A program made the translations under genes and the position numbers. Positions 11,519 through 36,099 of a stretch of DNA of 36,281 nt are shown here, one piece after another. The stretch is taken from positions 1-36,281 of the forward strand of contig JAJRWA010000257.1 of assembly GCA_024277025.1 (NCBI GenBank), written 5' to 3'. Source of the DNA: Candidatus Krumholzibacteriota bacterium (lineage in GTDB: Bacteria; Krumholzibacteriota; Krumholzibacteriia; LZORAL124-64-63). Position 1 is the first letter of the stretch; each line of letters starts with the position of its first letter. The notes below the pieces were generated by a model, which was not told where the DNA came from, made no database searches, and saw nothing but the letters and a program-made list of their open reading frames with translations.

Positions 11519-12588
11519 TACTGCCGCGTCGCGGCCAACGCCTCTTCCCGCCGGTAGGCCAGGATGGCGTCCACGACTTCGCCCAGTTCACCGGCCATGA
11601 TCGCGTCCAGGCTGTGCACCGTCAGGCCGATGCGGTGGTCGGTGACCCGGCTCTGGGGAAAATTGTAGGTCCGGATCTTGGCGCTGCGGTCCCCGGTGCC
11701 CACCTGGCTCTTGCGCTCGGCCGCGATCTCGGCCTCCTGCTCCATGATGGCCGCCTCCAGGATGCGCGAGCGCAGCACGCCCATGGCCTTGGCCTTGTTC
11801 TTGTGCTGGGATTTCTCGTCCTGGCACTGGACCACGATCCCGGTCGGTTCGTGGGTGATGCGCACAGCACTGTCGGTCGTGTTGACCGACTGGCCGCCCG
11901 GCCCCTGGGCGCGGTACACGTCGATGCGCAGGTCCTCGGGTTTGATCTCGATATCCACTTCCTCGGCCTCCGGCAGCACCGCCACGGTGATCGCCGAAGT
12001 GTGGATGCGGCCCTGGCTCTCGGTCGCCGGCACGCGCTGCACGCGGTGCACGCCGCTTTCCCAGCGCAGCATGCCGAAAGCGCCCTCGCCGCGCACGGCG
12101 TAGATGACCTCCTTGACGCCGCCGGCGGTGCCCTCGGTCATGTCGATCAGTTCGGTCTGCCAGCCCTGCTTCTCGGCGTAGCGGATGTACATGCGCGCGA
12201 TCTCTTCGGCAAACAGGGCGGCTTCATCACCGCCGGTGCCGGCCCGGATCTCCAGAATGGCGTCACGGTCGTCATTGGGGTCGTGGGGCAGCAGGGCCGT
12301 TTCCAGGGCCTCGGCCGCCTCGGCCAGCGCCGGTTCCAGCTCCGTCAGCTCATCCTTGATCATCTCCAGCATGTCCGGGTCCTTCTCGGACTTCAGCAGC
12401 GCGTGGTTCTCGTCCACCTGCGTCTGCAGATCCAGCCACTTCTCGCCGATCTCCAGCTGCTTGCGGATACGCGAGTGCTCTCGGGTGAGCTTGCGGTAGG
12501 CGGTCTGGTCGTTCAGCACATCCGGCTGGGACAGGGCCTCGCCCAACTCGGCGTACTTGTCGCGCAGCGTCAGGACATTGGCTTTCAC
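11518..12588 (-). CDS. prfA: Peptide chain release factor 1 (RF1)
   Basis: RF1 ends translation at UAA and UAG. The 356-residue protein is full length and has every key element. The codon-reading PAT tripeptide is in [14 protein letters not shown] (187-189); this is the RF1 version, not the SPF of RF2. The catalytic GGQ is in [15 protein letters not shown] (231-233), and QHKNKAKAM and [14 protein letters not shown] are conserved. It starts with GTG (12586-12588), which overlaps the TGA of the DUF1385 gene. It ends in TAA, overlapping prmC. That RF1 looks intact matters for reading the internal TAG codons in rho and in the phosphorylase gene, since such a factor should stop translation there. 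Confidence 0.96.
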
Positions 12589-13643
12589 GCGGTTTCCCCC
12601 AGCCCGGCATCGGCGGCCGGCTCAGCTTCGGTTTCCGGTTCATCGGTCTGCGGCAGATCGTAGTAGATCCGCTCCCTGAAGTCATCACTCTCGGGCGTGA
12701 GCACCGAGCGCAGGGCGGCCATGCCCACGGAGAGCTGCTCGTCATCGGGCTCGCTGGTCGTGATCTTCTGCAGCATCAGACCGGGAAAGATCACCGGCTG
12801 CAGGAACCAGGCCTTGGCGTGCTTGCCCGACAGCTTGATCGCCTCGTAGGCCAAGCCGCCGATCACCGGCACGAACGCCAGCCGCTGCAGGCGGTCCGGG
12901 ATGTCTTCGGGGCGCCCCAGAAACGAGAAGACGACGATCGAGATCAGCATCACGAAGAACAGGAAGCTGGTGCCGCAGCGCGGGTGCAGGGTCGTGAAGG
13001 GCCGGGCGCCGGCGGCATCCAGGCTCTTGCCGTTCTCGAAGGCGTGGATGCTCTTGTGCTCGGCCCCGTGGTACTCGAAGACGCGGGCCATATCCGGCAG
13101 TTTGGACACCAGCAGCAGGTAGACCACGAACATCGTCACCCGAAACAGGCCATCGACGACATTCCAGACCAGGCTGCCGTGGCTCTCGGCCACCACCAGG
13201 TCCGTCAGCAGGATCGGCACGTAGAAGAACAGTCCCATGCTCAGGGCGAACGAAAACACGATCGTGCCCCACATCATGACCGTGTCCCAGAACGAGCTCT
13301 TTTTCTGGTCGACGCGGTCTTCGCTGATCGCCTGGTAGGCCGAGAACATCAGGGCGTCGATGCCCAGGGCCATGCTTTCGATCAGATGGATGCCTCCGCG
13401 CAGAACCGGGATATTCAGGAAGGGCAGCTTGCGCATTACGCTCTTGAAAACCTTCTTGCGCACGACAATGCGGCCGTCGGGCGTGCGCACGGCCATGGCC
13501 ATGTAGGCCGGGCTGCGCATCATCACCCCTTCGATCAGGGCCTGACCGCCGACGGCCAGATCCATCTGGCGCGCTTCGGTGGCTTCGATGTGTTGCGGAT
13601 CAGCGGCGGCAGGGCCCACCGGCTGCGGTTCGGATGCTGACAT
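12585..13643 (-). CDS. DUF1385 membrane protein
   Basis: A 352-residue member of the DUF1385 family, often found beside rpmE, prfA and prmC as it is here. Conserved blocks are [15 protein letters not shown] (~31-45), [46 protein letters not shown] and the C-terminal [20 protein letters not shown]. About four to five membrane segments lie between ~118 and ~280. The His/Glu pair in YHGAEHK and the HPRCGTSF block suggest a metal or catalytic site, but the family's function is not established to my knowledge. The first ~25 and last ~25 residues are acidic or Pro-rich and poorly conserved. The stop overlaps the GTG start of prfA. Confidence 0.9.
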
Positions 13644-25979: not shown

Positions 25980-26151
25980 TGGCCCTCTTTTCCTGGTGCC
26001 TTATTATGTCTTCCAGCTTTATGATGCACTTCGGTGGCCGAAGTAATTCGGCAATGAAAGCCCGCGCATCATCCCATCGGCTGCCTGCGGTGCCAAGCGC
26101 ATTCGCGCACCACCTGCAGACATCCGGCCCGTCGCCAACGTGGAGAGTCTC

Positions 26152-28788
26152 ATGCCAGCGATCCAGAAATTTGTGGTCACCCCGAACCTGCCCGAACCCC
26201 TCCAGCCCCTGCTCGACATTGCGCGCAACGTCTGGTGGTCCTGGAATGTGGAGGCCATCAACCTGTTGCGGCGCGTCGATCCGGACCTCTGGGATCAGCA
26301 CGAGGGCAACCCCGTGGCCGTGCTGGGCTCCCTTTCCACCGAGCGGGTGGCCGTCCTGCTGAAAGACACGGCCTTTCTGGCTCACCTGGAACGTGTGCGG
26401 GGTGACCTGGACCGCTACCTGAGCCGGCCGACCTGGTTCCAGAACGAACACGACAATATCAGTGGGGGCCGGGTGGGCTATTTCTCCCTGGAATTCGGGC
26501 TGCATGAATCCCTGCCGTTGTATTCCGGCGGCCTGGGTATCCTGGCCGGCGACCACCTGAAGTCGGCCACCGACCTGGGCCTGCCGCTGGTCGGCGTGGG
26601 CCTGGCCTACCAGGAAGGCTACTTCCGCCAGTACCTGAACCACGACGGCTGGCAAATGGAAGGGTACACGGCCAACGATTTCTACAACATGTCCATGAAC
26701 CTGGAACTCGATGCGGAAGGCAACCCGCTGACGATCGAAGTCCACTACCCGGGCCGGACGGTCGCAGCGCGCATCTGGCGGGTGCAGGTCGGGCGCAACC
26801 CCCTGCTGCTGCTGGACACCAACCTGCCGGTCAACCTGCCGGAGGACCGCGAGCTGACCGCGCGACTCTACGGCGGCTCCGAGGACATGCGGATCCGGCA
26901 GGAGATCCTGCTGGGCATCGGCGGCCTGCGCGCCCTGATCACCCTGGGCCTCGAGCCGACGGTCTGCCACCTGAACGAAGGACACTCGGCCTTCCTGGGG
27001 CTGGAGCGCATCAACCTGCTGATGAAGAACCAGGGGCTGGATTTCGACACGGCCTTCGAGGTCGTGCGGGCCAGCAACGTATTCACCACCCACACCCCGG
27101 TGCCGGCGGGCAACGACCAGTTCCAACCGGATCTGGTGCGCCGTTACCTGACCAGAAAAGCCGACGAATTGGGTATCGGCATCGAGCGTCTGCTGGCCTT
27201 CGGCCGCCAGAACCCCGGCGACGACCGGGAGCTGTTCAACATGACGGTGCTGGCGCTGCGCCTCAGCCGCTCGGTCAATGGGGTCAGCGAGCTGCACGGG
27301 CACGTGTCCCGGGGCATGTGGCAGGCCGTGTGGCCGGGCGCGCCCCTGGAAGAGGTGCCCATCAGCTACGTCACCAATGGCATCCACACCCGCAGCTGGC
27401 TGTGCACCGAGATCGCCCGTCTTTACGACCGTTACCTGGGCCCCCGCTGGTTCGAGGATCCGACCAACAAGACGATCTGGGATCGCGTCGACACGATTCC
27501 TGACGCTGAACTGTGGCGTGGGCACGAGCGGATGCGCGAGCGGCTGGTCGGCTTCGTGCGCGGGCGCCTGCGGCGGCAGTTGCGCAAGCGGGGCGCCAAC
27601 CGGACCTGGATCAAGCAGGCCGGCGAAGTGCTCGACCCCGAGGCGTTGACGATCGGTTTCGCGCGCCGTTTCGCGACCTACAAGCGGGCGGCCCTGATCC
27701 TGAGCGATCCGGACCGGCTGGACCGGATCCTGAACGATCCCGAACGCCCGGTGCAGCTGATCTTCGCCGGCAAGGCGCACCCCAAGGACCATCACGGCAA
27801 GGAGCTCATCCGGCAACTGGTCAATCTGGCCCAGGAAGACCGCTTCAGCAACCGGATCGTCTTCATCGAGGACTACAACATCGAGGTCGGACGCTACCTG
27901 GTGCAGGGCGTGGACGTGTGGCTGAACAACCCGCGCCGGCCCCTGGAAGCCAGTGGCACCAGCGGCATGAAGGTGCCACCCAACGGCGGCGTGAATCTGA
28001 GCATCCTGGACGGCTGGTGGTGTGAGGGCTACCAGCAGGACAACGGCTGGGCCATCGGCGCCGGCGAGGACTACGAAGACCACGCCGAAAGCCAGGCCTA
28101 TCAGGACGATGTCGAGTCCACGGCCCTGTACGACCTGCTGGAGAACTAGATCGTGCCGACGTTCTACGAGCGCGGCGTCGACGACGTGCCGCGCGAATGG
28201 ACCCGCATCATGAAGCGGTCCATGCGCACGGTGAACGCCGAGTTCAACACCAACCGCATGGTCGAGGAATACACCGAGCGGTTCTACATTCCAGCCGTGG
28301 AAAACGCGGCCCGGCTTGGCGCCGAAGGCTACGCGAAGGCCCGGGAGCTGGCCGACTGGCGGCGGCGCGTGCACGAGGGCTGGCGTGGATTGGCCATCAC
28401 CCAGGTGGTCGCGCCGCCGGTGACGGCCCACCCCATGGGCACGAGTTTGCCCGTGTCCGCGACCGTGGCCCTGGGTACGATTCCCGTGGACGAGGTCCTG
28501 GTCGAGGTCTACCACTGCCTGCTGGATTCCGATGGGCAGATCACCGACGGCGAGGCGGCGACCCTGTTTGCCGGCCAGGACAATGGCGACGGCACGGTGA
28601 CCTTCACCGGCGAGATCGCCTGCCGGCGCGCCGGTCAGCGCGGTTTCACCGTCCGGGTCGTGCCCCGCAAGAACGGCTACCCGCTGGATCGTTTCGAGAC
28701 CGGCCTGATCACCTGGTGGGAAGACCCGCGCGCGGGGACAACCGCCAGTGGCCCCCAGACCGGCGATCCGGCCCTGAACCGGGCCTGA
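26152..28788 (+). CDS. glgP: Alpha-glucan (glycogen/maltodextrin) phosphorylase, interrupted by an in-frame TAG at codon 666
   Basis: GT35-family enzyme that releases glucose 1-phosphate from alpha-1,4-glucans, in the ~850-residue 'alpha-glucan family phosphorylase' branch. The ATG at 26152 has GGAG upstream; a GTG at 26140 is less likely. Motifs: VWWSWNVEAINLLRRVDP, FSLEFGLHESLPLYSGGLGI, NEGHSAFLGLERI, THTPVPAGNDQF, VTNGIHTRSW, GFARRFATYKRA, FAGKAHP, and the PLP lysine in EASGTSGMKVPPNGG (K607). TAG at 28147-28149 follows ALYDLLEN. The frame continues as IVPTFYERG..VPREWTRIM, then MRTVNAEFNTNRMVEEYTER and FYIPAVENAARL for 212 residues to TGA. The family has LLENEIVPLFY here, so TAG replaces a conserved glutamate. 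The two parts are 26152-28149 and 28150-28788. Without read-through, the C-terminal glucan-binding lobe is lost. Confidence 0.92.
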
Positions 28789-28814: not shown

Positions 28815-28844
28815 AGTGCCCGGGCTCACGCGAGTCCGGGCACT
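28815..28844 (+). terminator. Likely terminator hairpin after the phosphorylase gene
   Basis: AGTGCCCGG (28815-28823) pairs perfectly with CCGGGCACT (28836-28844), 9 base pairs with a 12-base loop, followed by ATTCCTTTC, a weak T-rich tail. It lies 26 bases after the phosphorylase stop and overlaps the end of the convergent regulator gene. Confidence 0.6.
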
Positions 28845-29170
28845 ATTCCTTTCAATTCAGACACATAGCGGTTGAACTCGCGTTTCCCGCGGGCCGAGAT
28901 CCGCACCATTGTGCGCGGTTTGCGGCCGACGAACGCCCGATTGAGCTGCACCAGTCCCGCCGCCTCCAGCTTGGCCAGATTGACTGACAACGAGCCGTCG
29001 CTGAAGCCGAGTTCATCGCGCAATACGGTGAAGGGATAAGAGCGGGGCCGGCGCAGCAGGAAGGACAGGATCAGCAGTCTGGCCCGGCCGTGGATCAGTG
29101 GTGAAAGCGGGACCTGTCCGCCACCGCCGGCGGCGGACGCGTCGGAGCCCGCGAAGTTCTTCGGTGCCAC
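28826..29170 (-). CDS. Winged-helix transcriptional regulator (HTH_34/MarR-like)
   Basis: A 114-residue DNA-binding protein. A short Gly/Ala-rich N-terminus is followed by a winged helix-turn-helix: IHGRARLLILSFLLRRPRSY, PFTVLRDELGFSDGSLSVNL (recognition helix), AKLEAAGLVQLNRAFVGRKP (wing), RTMVRISARGKREFNRYVSE. This pattern matches small ArsR/MarR-type 'winged helix DNA-binding' regulators. It starts with GTG (29168-29170) after AAGGAGG. It faces the phosphorylase gene tail-to-tail, and its promoter must lie in the unusual structured gap to its right, so its target may be there. No metal-binding cysteines are visible. Confidence 0.85.
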   Translation of the reverse strand: MAPKNFAGSDASAAGGGGQVPLSPLIHGRARLLILSFLLRRPRSYPFTVLRDELGFSDGSLSVNLAKLEAAGLVQLNRAFVGRKPRTMVRISARGKREFNRYVSELKGIVPGLA

Positions 29171-29910
29171 GCCGGTCGGCCTCCTTGCCGGGCGTCATCA
29201 CCTGCGCCGGGCGGGGCCATCGCATCCGTGCGATTCCAGCCCGCCGCGGCACTTTCGCAAGTTGTCATAACAGGGGCCGGCGCTGTGTCACTTGGTGTCG
29301 TCGCACTGCCGGCCCCTGGGTCTCAGGAATGGCCGCCCTGCCAATTCCTGAAGCGGGTCCATCCGGATGGTTTCGGCGTGTGCCCGCCAGACCCGCTTCC
29401 TCAAATCCATTTGAGTGAAGCTGTCTGACGAGGGGGCGGCTGGCACCCAGGACCAGTTCGTCCGCCCCCCACTGCCGCTGGAGATCCTTCTCCTGTCCCT
29501 CGCGGGAATCCCTGACCAGTGGTCAATGCTCCGTCGGGATCCGGCAAACCATCTCGTTGGACCAAACCCGGATTCATTTGTCGCCCTCGGGCCCAGTCCC
29601 CTCGTGCGAGCATGCCGTTCCGGATCAATTTGGCGCTGATCCCCCGCTCCGGAGATCCTTATCCCAAGCGGGCTGATTCGACCAGGCGCTATACTTTAAT
29701 ATCCAAAGTTCTTTGGTTTGTAAAGCTAAAAAACGCAGAACCGTGGATTATTTTCGCGGCCGTCCGTAAAAACCCCCGGAATGGCGAAAATCGGCGGCCA
29801 ATAGCCGATTCTATGCTGGACTTGGTTGGCGGTCAGGTTATCTTGGTCGGGCTTTTCACACGTCAAAGCGGGTCGCCGCGGCGCTCGCAGATCCACTGGA
29901 GGAGGTTGCC
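29171..29910. other. 740-base gap with a cluster of strong hairpins; divergent promoter region
   Basis: No convincing gene. Between 29271 and 29525 six inverted repeats follow each other almost without spacing. Arms: 29271-29281/29308-29318 (11 perfect pairs), 29323-29333/29340-29351 (11 pairs, one bulge), 29350-29359/29390-29399 (10 perfect), 29395-29406/29409-29421 (up to 12, one bulge), 29432-29439/29462-29469 (8 perfect), 29513-29525 (6). None has a U-run. From ~29690 the DNA turns AT-rich, with TATACT at 29690-29695, a CCAAAG/CTTTGG hairpin at 29703-29716 and AATCGGC/GCCGATT at 29789-29810; this part is probably the promoter and leader of the aminotransferase gene. It could encode a structured RNA. 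I found no match to tRNA, tmRNA or RNase P signatures. Confidence 0.5.
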
Positions 29911-33919: not shown

Positions 33920-34537
33920 CTAGAATCGGAGGTTCCGCCCCGATTCCGGGTGAGCAAAGGCCAACACGCCCGCGTGCAGTTGCATCTGCCCTGGTTCGGT
34001 CCCGGTGCCGTACAGACGGTCGCCGACAATAGGACAACCGAGCCCCAGTTCGTGAGCCGCGTGAAGACGCAGTTGGTGGGTACGACCAGTCAGTGGCCTG
34101 AATTCAACCAACGTGCGGCCATCCCGGACACTCAGTTTCCGCCATCGTGTCCGACCGATCTTGCCCCGCAGTGGGTCATGGATCTGGTGCGGCCGGTTGT
34201 CGGGATCCAGTCGGAAAGCCAGCTCGATTTCACCCGCATCACCATCAACAAGGCCAGCCAGAACCGCAAAATAGATCTTCTCGACCTGGCGCTCCGCGAA
34301 CTGACGGGAGAGATGGCGCTGACTGTGTTCGGTCAGCCCCAAGACAAGCAGCCCCGAGGTGTCCATGTCCAACCGATGGACGGTGGGGTGGGCGATACAA
34401 TCGGGATGAACGGCCTTGAGCCGGCTGACGACACAGTCCTGATTGTCCGGACCGCGCCCCGGCACAGACAACAGGCCGCTCGGCTTGTTGACGACCGCAA
34501 TGGACTGGTCACGATAGACAAATTCCAAGTGGTTCAT
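33920..34537 (-). CDS. RluA-family RNA pseudouridine synthase, catalytic domain only
   Basis: A 205-residue enzyme that makes pseudouridine in rRNA or tRNA. The N-terminus is MNHLEFVYRDQSIAVVNKPS followed by GLLSVPGRG. The catalytic aspartate is in VHRLDMDTSGLLVLG (D57). EKIYFAVLAG, EFRPLTGRTHQLRLHAAHEL and GCPIVGDRLYG are RluA blocks. No S4 domain is present. The ATG (34535-34537) overlaps the stop of the SGNH fusion gene (ATGA), so the two are translationally coupled. In many relatives, the C-terminal part of that neighbour and this catalytic domain are one polypeptide. It ends in TAG (33920-33922); see the findings for a possible short extension. Confidence 0.9.
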   Translation of the reverse strand: MNHLEFVYRDQSIAVVNKPSGLLSVPGRGPDNQDCVVSRLKAVHPDCIAHPTVHRLDMDTSGLLVLGLTEHSQRHLSRQFAERQVEKIYFAVLAGLVDGDAGEIELAFRLDPDNRPHQIHDPLRGKIGRTRWRKLSVRDGRTLVEFRPLTGRTHQLRLHAAHELGLGCPIVGDRLYGTGTEPGQMQLHAGVLAFAHPESGRNLRF

Positions 34538-35967
34538 TTCCCGACTCCGCAAAGCATGAAACCGAGCAGCGGGCCGCATTTATCCGCGCAACTGCCATAA
34601 AAACGACCATGCTCACGGGAACCGGACCGATTGGGCCGCCCCCAGTAGAATTCGGCAAGACCGAGTGGACGCAAGCCGAGGCGCAACGCCTCATTCAACA
34701 ACTTCGGTGCGCAGCAATCCCCCGCACCGGCCGGAATGCCGCGGGCATGGGCAAAAAAGGCGGACAGTGGCCTCGTTTCACCGTTGAAGCTGCGCACTTC
34801 GTACAGGGCATGAAGATCCTTCATCAACAATTGCGAGAGTCGCTTCCGTTCCTGCCGGAGTTGCCGCGTGGTCTCGGCATCCGGTGTCCGGTCCGATATC
34901 CGACGATCGAGCAGCTTCAACCGGTGGTCGCCCGGGATCATGATTCGATCGTGCGCAGCCACCGAAAACAGCGGTGGCACCCAGCCAGGCACTTCCCACA
35001 CGCCGTTGTACTGACCCGAAAACGCGCGCAGCACCACCCGGCCGCCGGCGGCATCCTCGCCCACCAGCACCCCAAACATCTGGCCACGGGCCTCGCCGAA
35101 AAGGTAGTCCGTGCTGAAGCGGGGGTCTGCAGCTTCGGCCCCGACATCGATGCGTCCCCGGTCGTCCAGTTCCCGCATCAGAAGAAGCGCCTGCTCACGG
35201 GCCACACCCGCGGCCAATCGATGTTCCGCGCGGCAGCGCTCGCACCTGCCGCCCACGATTGGGTCAGTCTGGTGGCGCTTGATCTGACTGGCCACAGCCT
35301 GACCCCAAAGGCGGTACAAACCAGGGCCCGGGTGAAAGCCGTCGCGGGCCATCAGGGCCGGATCGTGGCTGAAATCAGTCGCCAGACGGACGCAGTCGGC
35401 ATGGCTGTCCGCCCAGGCCGCGAGGGCCGCGTCGAAATCCCGGGCCCGGGCGCCAAGGTACCAGCGCAGCGGCTGGGGCAAGGCCGGAAACAGATGCATC
35501 GGCGGCAGGCCGGAAAACAGGATGCGGGGCTGCTGAAACTTCTCACGCAGCAGGTCCCGCAGCCCGGACAACCCCTGGCGCCAGACATCCAGCGTGGTTC
35601 GCGCCACGACGTCGTTGACCCCCAGCGAGACGACCACCCAATCCCAGGGTTCGGCATCCAGGCGCCGCAGACGCCGCACCGTCTGGGCCAGGGTGGCCCC
35701 CGAGCGGGCCATCAACTGCCAGTGGACCTTGTATTGGCCGGCCAGCTCGGCGACCATCCGGCCGGACAAGGCTTCCGTCTGGGTGGCGGCCCCGACGCCG
35801 GCTCCGGCCGAGTCACCGATGATCAGGACACGCAGGGGCGGCCCCTCGCCGGCCACGCCCTGCCGTTCCCCGTCGGGTTCAGGCAGCAGGGCAACCCGTT
35901 GGCGGACCTGCCGTCCCTGGCGGAGCAGGAGCGGACCAAGCAGTATGGTCGATAGTTCATGTCGCAT
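34534..35967 (-). CDS. SGNH/GDSL hydrolase fused to the N-terminal accessory domain of RluA-type pseudouridine synthases
   Basis: About 477 residues. The first ~230 are an SGNH hydrolase: VLIIGDSAGAGVGAATQTEA (block I serine), GATLAQTVRRL (block II glycine), WVVVSLGVNDVVARTTLDVW (block III, GxND) and RDGFHPGPGLYRLW (block V, DxxH). A short Cys-containing linker (GGRCERCRAEHRLAAG) follows. The second half is DYLFGEARGQMFGVLVGEDA, then VVLRAFSGQYNGVWEVPGWV, a helical stretch, IPAGAGDCCAPKLLNEALRL, GLRPLGLAEFYWG, and HGRFYGSCADKCGPLLGFML. This is the accessory region that precedes the catalytic domain in long RluA-type synthases. Its cysteines may bind zinc. The ATG at 35965-35967 follows AGGGG; an ATG at 35995-35997 has no such site. 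Its TGA overlaps the pseudouridine synthase ATG. Confidence 0.85.
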   Translation of the reverse strand: MRHELSTILLGPLLLRQGRQVRQRVALLPEPDGERQGVAGEGPPLRVLIIGDSAGAGVGAATQTEALSGRMVAELAGQYKVHWQLMARSGATLAQTVRRLRRLDAEPWDWVVVSLGVNDVVARTTLDVWRQGLSGLRDLLREKFQQPRILFSGLPPMHLFPALPQPLRWYLGARARDFDAALAAWADSHADCVRLATDFSHDPALMARDGFHPGPGLYRLWGQAVASQIKRHQTDPIVGGRCERCRAEHRLAAGVAREQALLLMRELDDRGRIDVGAEAADPRFSTDYLFGEARGQMFGVLVGEDAAGGRVVLRAFSGQYNGVWEVPGWVPPLFSVAAHDRIMIPGDHRLKLLDRRISDRTPDAETTRQLRQERKRLSQLLMKDLHALYEVRSFNGETRPLSAFFAHARGIPAGAGDCCAPKLLNEALRLGLRPLGLAEFYWGRPNRSGSREHGRFYGSCADKCGPLLGFMLCGVGK

Positions 35968-36099
35968 GGATCGGGCCCCTGGATAGCTGATGTTCATCGT
36001 AAGTGGGGAAATCTAGGGGAAAGGTCCTTCTTTGTCCCGCCCAATTGTGCTACTGTCGCTGACTCGACATCCCCCCGCTCTTCCCAACAAGGAGCCTAC

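Follow-up and report, generated by a model that had tools for sequence, protein, structure and literature searches.

A conserved multi-hairpin RNA with CsrA-type sites, predicted to be the leader of a winged-helix regulator gene in Krumholzibacteriia

The biology of CsrA is thinly known outside the Gammaproteobacteria, Bacillus and Campylobacter. The SELEX consensus of CsrA is RUACARGGAUGU, and a hairpin with an ANGGAN hexaloop is contacted by RsmE (PMC7652899). The CsrA-repressed leaders of Escherichia coli pgaA and glgC carry multiple GGA sites, one of which lies over the Shine-Dalgarno (SD) sequence, together with an upstream bridging hairpin; in glgC the bridging involves the SD-overlapping site, and the pgaA leader has six sites (PMC7652899). 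Likewise, hag of Bacillus subtilis and flaA of Campylobacter jejuni have ANGGA stem-loops, the second of them over the SD, along with FliW and CsrA genes and compensatory changes in the stems (PMC4894983). Repeated hairpins with GGA-containing loops are also found in the small RNAs CsrB, CsrC and RsmX/Y/Z and in the TwoAYGGAY motif of Rfam.

The locus described here lies in a 36,281-nt stretch of DNA from a Candidatus Krumholzibacteriota bacterium (contig JAJRWA010000257.1, hereafter the window), between rocD and a minus-strand gene with a GTG start (28826 to 29170) that encodes an HTH_34 winged-helix regulator (Pfam PF13601, E = 5.6e-19), a relative of PDB 1ub9. Judged from its sequence features, the region is very probably the 5' untranslated leader of the HTH_34 gene, bearing CsrA sites through which CsrA would repress translation of the regulator. 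It differs from the E. coli leaders in the gene and phylum concerned and in its array, which forms part of a conserved fold of several domains that includes a junction domain and additional hairpins lacking GGA. The leader of flaA measures 45 nt and has two stem-loops, whereas this one has about 500 nt in the window, more than the HTH_34 ORF itself, and precedes a DNA-binding regulator; the flagellin genes of the same genome carry separate, short CsrA-type leaders. The class of mechanism is known; relative to the databases and papers searched, what is new is the RNA family together with its architecture and host group. In the literature search, no paper linking Krumholzibacteriota with CsrA or with riboswitches was found. 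The locus offers a testable CsrA target in this poorly studied phylum and, in its strongly covarying RNA, a family not described before.

The initial annotation had reported a dense hairpin cluster at 29271-29525 as a possible novel structured RNA. Exact Watson-Crick stems of 11 bp (29271-29281/29308-29318), 10 bp (29350-29359/29390-29399) and 8 bp (29432-29439/29462-29469 and 29323-29330/29344-29351) are indeed present at the positions that it gave. When 29265-29530 was folded against 200 dinucleotide shuffles, z was -5.3 for the plus strand and -4.6 for the minus strand, and none of the 200 equalled it; with good folding on both strands, the sense strand cannot be read from fold energy. The cluster had also been described as unexplained by any reading frame and as distinct from simple terminators. 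Both descriptions agree with our results: the lengths of indels in relatives are not divisible by three, and a coding origin of the hairpin region was therefore rejected, and a terminator scan found no terminator-like site in 29180-29690. Searches of the window and ten relatives against Rfam 15, at gathering and permissive thresholds, matched no riboswitch or leader family. The proposed unit itself had to be revised. Its hairpins form the middle of a conserved minus-strand element about twice as long, approximately 29177-29724, whose full extent, promoter-like element and CsrA-type loops had gone unseen.

Read 5' to 3' on the minus strand, the element begins with a promoter-like sequence, TTTACA-N17-TATTAA (29696-29724), followed by hairpin H1 (29643-29672), which presents, 486 nt before the start codon, an AAGGA loop (29656-29660) and is imperfect in the window, where the loop-adjacent pair is mismatched. 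Hairpin H1b (GAUCCGGA / UCCGGGUU, 29565-29626) has conserved flanks and a variable interior loop in the alignment. Domain D (29474-29545) occurs in all aligned leaders and is closed by a GCCG/CGGC stem around P2, P3 and P4; P2 has ACGGA in its loop (29530-29534), and P4 reads GGAG-AAGGAU-CUCC (29480-29493). Next comes hairpin C (29432-29469; GGGGGCGG ... CUGG-UCCUGGGUG-CCAG ... CCGCCCCC), with an invariant GGA-less loop and a one-sided bulge, and then the compound hairpin H4 (29385-29430), capped by CUCAA-AUGGAU-UUGAG (loop 29406-29410). A GCGGG/CCCGC stem at 29353-29387 carries a further AUGGA (29358-29362), which has no conserved hexaloop in relatives; the 10-bp stem of the initial annotation is an alternative pairing on this stretch. 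Hairpins E (UCAGGAAU..GGCAGGGCGGCC..AUUCCUGA, 29323-29351) and F (29271-29318), the latter a perfect 11-bp stem, CAGGGGCCGGC/GCCGGCCCCUG, with a variable loop, lack a hexaloop site; E and the stem of F are kept in most long leaders. Hairpin H5 (29210-29245) reads AUCGC-ACGGAU-GCGAU (loop 29225-29229), and its counterpart in relatives, ACAAGGAUGU, is close to the CsrA SELEX consensus. The leader ends in the SD hairpin GGC-AAGGAG-GCC (29177-29191), with the SD AAGGAGG at 29180-29186.

To count CsrA-type sites, a perfect hexaloop hairpin was defined as an ANGGAN loop with four or more perfect closing pairs, G-U included; the resulting count is independent of any alignment. In 28 leaders, which are mutually related, 87 such hairpins were found on the sense strand and 0 on the antisense strand, while dinucleotide shuffles of these leaders gave a mean total of 1.5 and a maximum of 6. 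Individual leaders had 1-6 perfect hexaloop hairpins and 4-10 ANGGA motifs, and the short leaders of some genera had fewer perfect hairpins. The window leader has four perfect hexaloops (29485-29489, 29406-29410, 29225-29229 and 29182-29186) and nine ANGGA motifs, about six of them at conserved stem-loop or junction positions. On 17 contigs from a separate pattern scan, drawn largely from the same genomes, the leaders held 62 sites per 10.0 kb, vs 13 per 236 kb elsewhere. The last ANGGA loop is the SD of the gene, and the motif GGCA[AG]GGAGGCC terminates 28/28 leaders. The mRNA strand thus has, as in known CsrA-regulated leaders, at least two ANGGA/GGA sites in hairpin loops, one of which overlaps the SD.

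A DNA search recovered the region in 20 of 58 relatives, all of the same family and all with the winged-helix gene adjoining; rocD lay on the other side wherever the recovered locus extended that far. With a covariance model built on a single domain (R1), the element was recovered from 31 of 80 genomes of the phylum, one copy apiece. These 31 genomes all belong to one Krumholzibacteriia family (31/38 members), and in every case the winged-helix gene, an orthologue of the HTH_34 gene, adjoins the leader. Among the 35 family members searched for both, the RNA occurred together with a close winged-helix orthologue in 28, and 7 lacked both, although the two are adjacent and assembly gaps can yield joint absences. 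Hosts in a pattern scan of public genomes were Candidatus Krumholzibacteriia or unclassified MAGs, one being labelled Gemmatimonadales.

Homologues and covariation, the check that had been suggested for the cluster, gave strong compensatory changes in the stems. In domain D, 11 of 17 pairs showed two-sided compensatory changes and 96% of cells were paired, compared with 30-54% when the partners were slid; on four of five measures no shuffle reached the observed value, and A3 was fitted to its own structure. For H4 and H1, whose windows were chosen because they contained a short stem, pairing was 91.6% with 29 two-sided changes (10.0 in shuffles) among 18 distinct H4 sequences around one loop, and 86.7% with 39 two-sided changes (12.5 in shuffles) among the orthologous H1 hexaloop hairpins of relatives. 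In all three, the loops stay constant while the stems change compensatorily. Being conserved, covarying and absent from Rfam, the element bears out the suggestion of a novel structured RNA.

The promoter-like block was present in 31/31 leaders examined, some 290-590 nt upstream of the coding match, with the minus-strand family consensus CTTGAaaAA..AAAGTACTTgg.tTATTAAAGTA (TTGAAA-like, 17 nt, TATTAA). A generic sigma-70 scan of the window did not list the element at 29696-29724, so the promoter call rests on its conservation. The same block (29692-29724, minus strand) contains repeated TACTT/AAGTA half-sites with conserved spacing. These half-sites are a possible operator for autoregulation by the HTH_34 protein. 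Their exact pattern occurs a single time in each of 7 of 38 genomes, solely at the leader promoter; no regulon was found, and the half-sites were rejected as a regulon signature.

Nearly all genomes with the element have csrA, and both csrA and fliW are found in most family members and in several other families. In the genome of the window, csrA directly follows fliW. The encoded CsrA shares 45% identity with its E. coli counterpart in a gapless match that keeps the RNA-binding residues L4 and R44. In this genome two flagellin genes (TTTCAAGGAGGAAA, TTCAAGGAGGAA) and csrA (GGACAGGGAGGTCC) have their SDs within the same type of hairpin as the HTH_34 gene, with a further hairpin upstream of both flagellin SD hairpins. 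The csrA hairpin is identical in genomes G001, G006 and G019 and is compensated to ACGACAAGGAGGTCGT in another family. ANGGAN SD hairpins on csrA and at least two flagellin genes were located on contig C26 of genome G000 (L051:1405-1418, L100-L102). The flagellin and csrA hairpins serve as an internal positive control for the CsrA code and are internal evidence that it is used in Krumholzibacteriota. Their pattern suggests autoregulation of CsrA and control of flagellin in Krumholzibacteriia, and the HTH_34 regulator gene is likely tied to this flagellar CsrA-FliW circuit.

In the proposed mechanism, a minus-strand leader would be transcribed from the conserved promoter-like element, with a start predicted near 29688, and would display the array of ANGGA loops, the last of which is the SD. 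CsrA dimers would bind the high-affinity upstream hairpins and bridge to the SD hairpin; bridged CsrA would then block ribosome entry and repress the regulator, as for glgC, hag or flaA. Removal of CsrA by FliW or by titrating RNAs would allow the regulator to be made. A possible second function is that the array may itself titrate CsrA, as reported for flaA (PMC4894983). The binding of CsrA, repression as the direction of control and the signal that would relieve it are predictions made from the RNA and the genes around it. As CsrA can also activate, the sign of control may instead be positive.

Several perfect palindromes in a gene-free gap might also represent a dispersed palindromic repeat or a decayed mobile element, an outcome that the initial annotation had named as one that would undo its proposal. 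That origin is vanishingly improbable and was rejected: REP-like elements occur in many copies per genome, whereas this element has one copy in its own genome and one per genome in relatives, at an orthologous position and with compensatory evolution, and the sole second match, an extra R1 hit in genome G005, was judged spurious as it lies inside a coding gene, a sigma-54 activator-type ORF. It is also very improbable that the hairpins form a leader or attenuator of rocD, even though rocD lies downstream on the plus strand and the gap is syntenic in relatives. The ANGGA hairpins occur on the minus strand only, the promoter-like element at 29696-29724 faces away from rocD, and 3' of the array rocD has its own promoter-like element on the plus strand, TGGACTT-N14-GTTATCTT (29817-29844), which is similarly spaced in about a dozen relatives. 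Because of this separate element, the array most likely lies before the start of rocD transcription and within the transcript of the winged-helix gene. Among the roles that had been offered, namely a noncoding RNA, a leader of either gene or a regulator-binding region, that of winged-helix leader is retained; strand and promoter evidence led us to reject the rocD leader.

Two further readings concern what else the RNA may do. The leader, alone or after processing, could mainly sequester CsrA as CsrB and RsmZ do, with control of the gene being secondary. Its many GGA hairpins (4-10 ANGGA motifs per leader), its multi-hairpin architecture and its length relative to the ORF would fit such a sponge, and the CsrA-titrating flaA mRNA of C. 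jejuni is a precedent for a dual-function mRNA (PMC4894983). We consider this reading rather unlikely, since no terminator or second RNA end was found between array and ORF, conservation is highest at the SD hairpin, all copies of the element adjoin the gene, and fewer perfect hairpins occur in the short leaders of some genera. Moreover, unlike CsrB, CsrC, RsmX/Y/Z and TwoAYGGAY, the leader runs into a translated gene and gave no Rfam Csr/Rsm or TwoAYGGAY match at the thresholds used. Somewhat less likely still, the leader may also bind something else (a ligand, or a ribosomal or regulatory protein) through domain D and hairpin C, CsrA being only one of its inputs. The loop of hairpin C, CUGGUCCUGGGUGCCAG, is near-invariant in 22 of 31 leaders, and stem changes are compensated in three of them; CsrA recognition needs neither feature, and the loop contains no GGA or other CsrA-type motif on the sense strand. 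Against this, hairpin C is absent from several genera in which the promoter-like element, the SD hairpin and domain D are all present, and no Rfam riboswitch was matched. The UCCU in the loop could pair with the AGGA of the SD or of other loops. Since the array exceeds the needs of repression, and hairpins C, E and F have no well-placed GGA loop, the leader of the HTH_34 gene probably does something more than simple SD occlusion. A bolder reading, judged rather unlikely, is a dual-function RNA: an mRNA repressed by CsrA that also serves as a CsrA sponge fixed in the chromosome. In these bacteria, which also carry FliW, a protein and an RNA antagonist of CsrA would then act together, and hairpin C would be a further sensing or binding module. 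A review counts concerted action by FliW and Csr sRNAs among the points undetermined in any species (PMC7652899), and the locus offers a candidate case for asking whether CsrA is antagonised by RNA alongside FliW.

Elsewhere in the window, isolated minus-strand ANGGAN hairpins were seen at 36029 (AAAGAAGGACCTTT), about 30 nt before the ORF at 34534-35997, and at 13565 (GCCAGATGGATCTGGC), within the start of the ORF at 12585-13643; they could be further CsrA sites or chance occurrences. Finally, an in-frame TAG at 28147-28149 (plus strand) splits an alpha-glucan phosphorylase gene (26140-28149, continuing in frame at 28153-28788). Relatives keep the frame open at this position, and the TAG is therefore read as either a nonsense mutation or a misassembly of the MAG.
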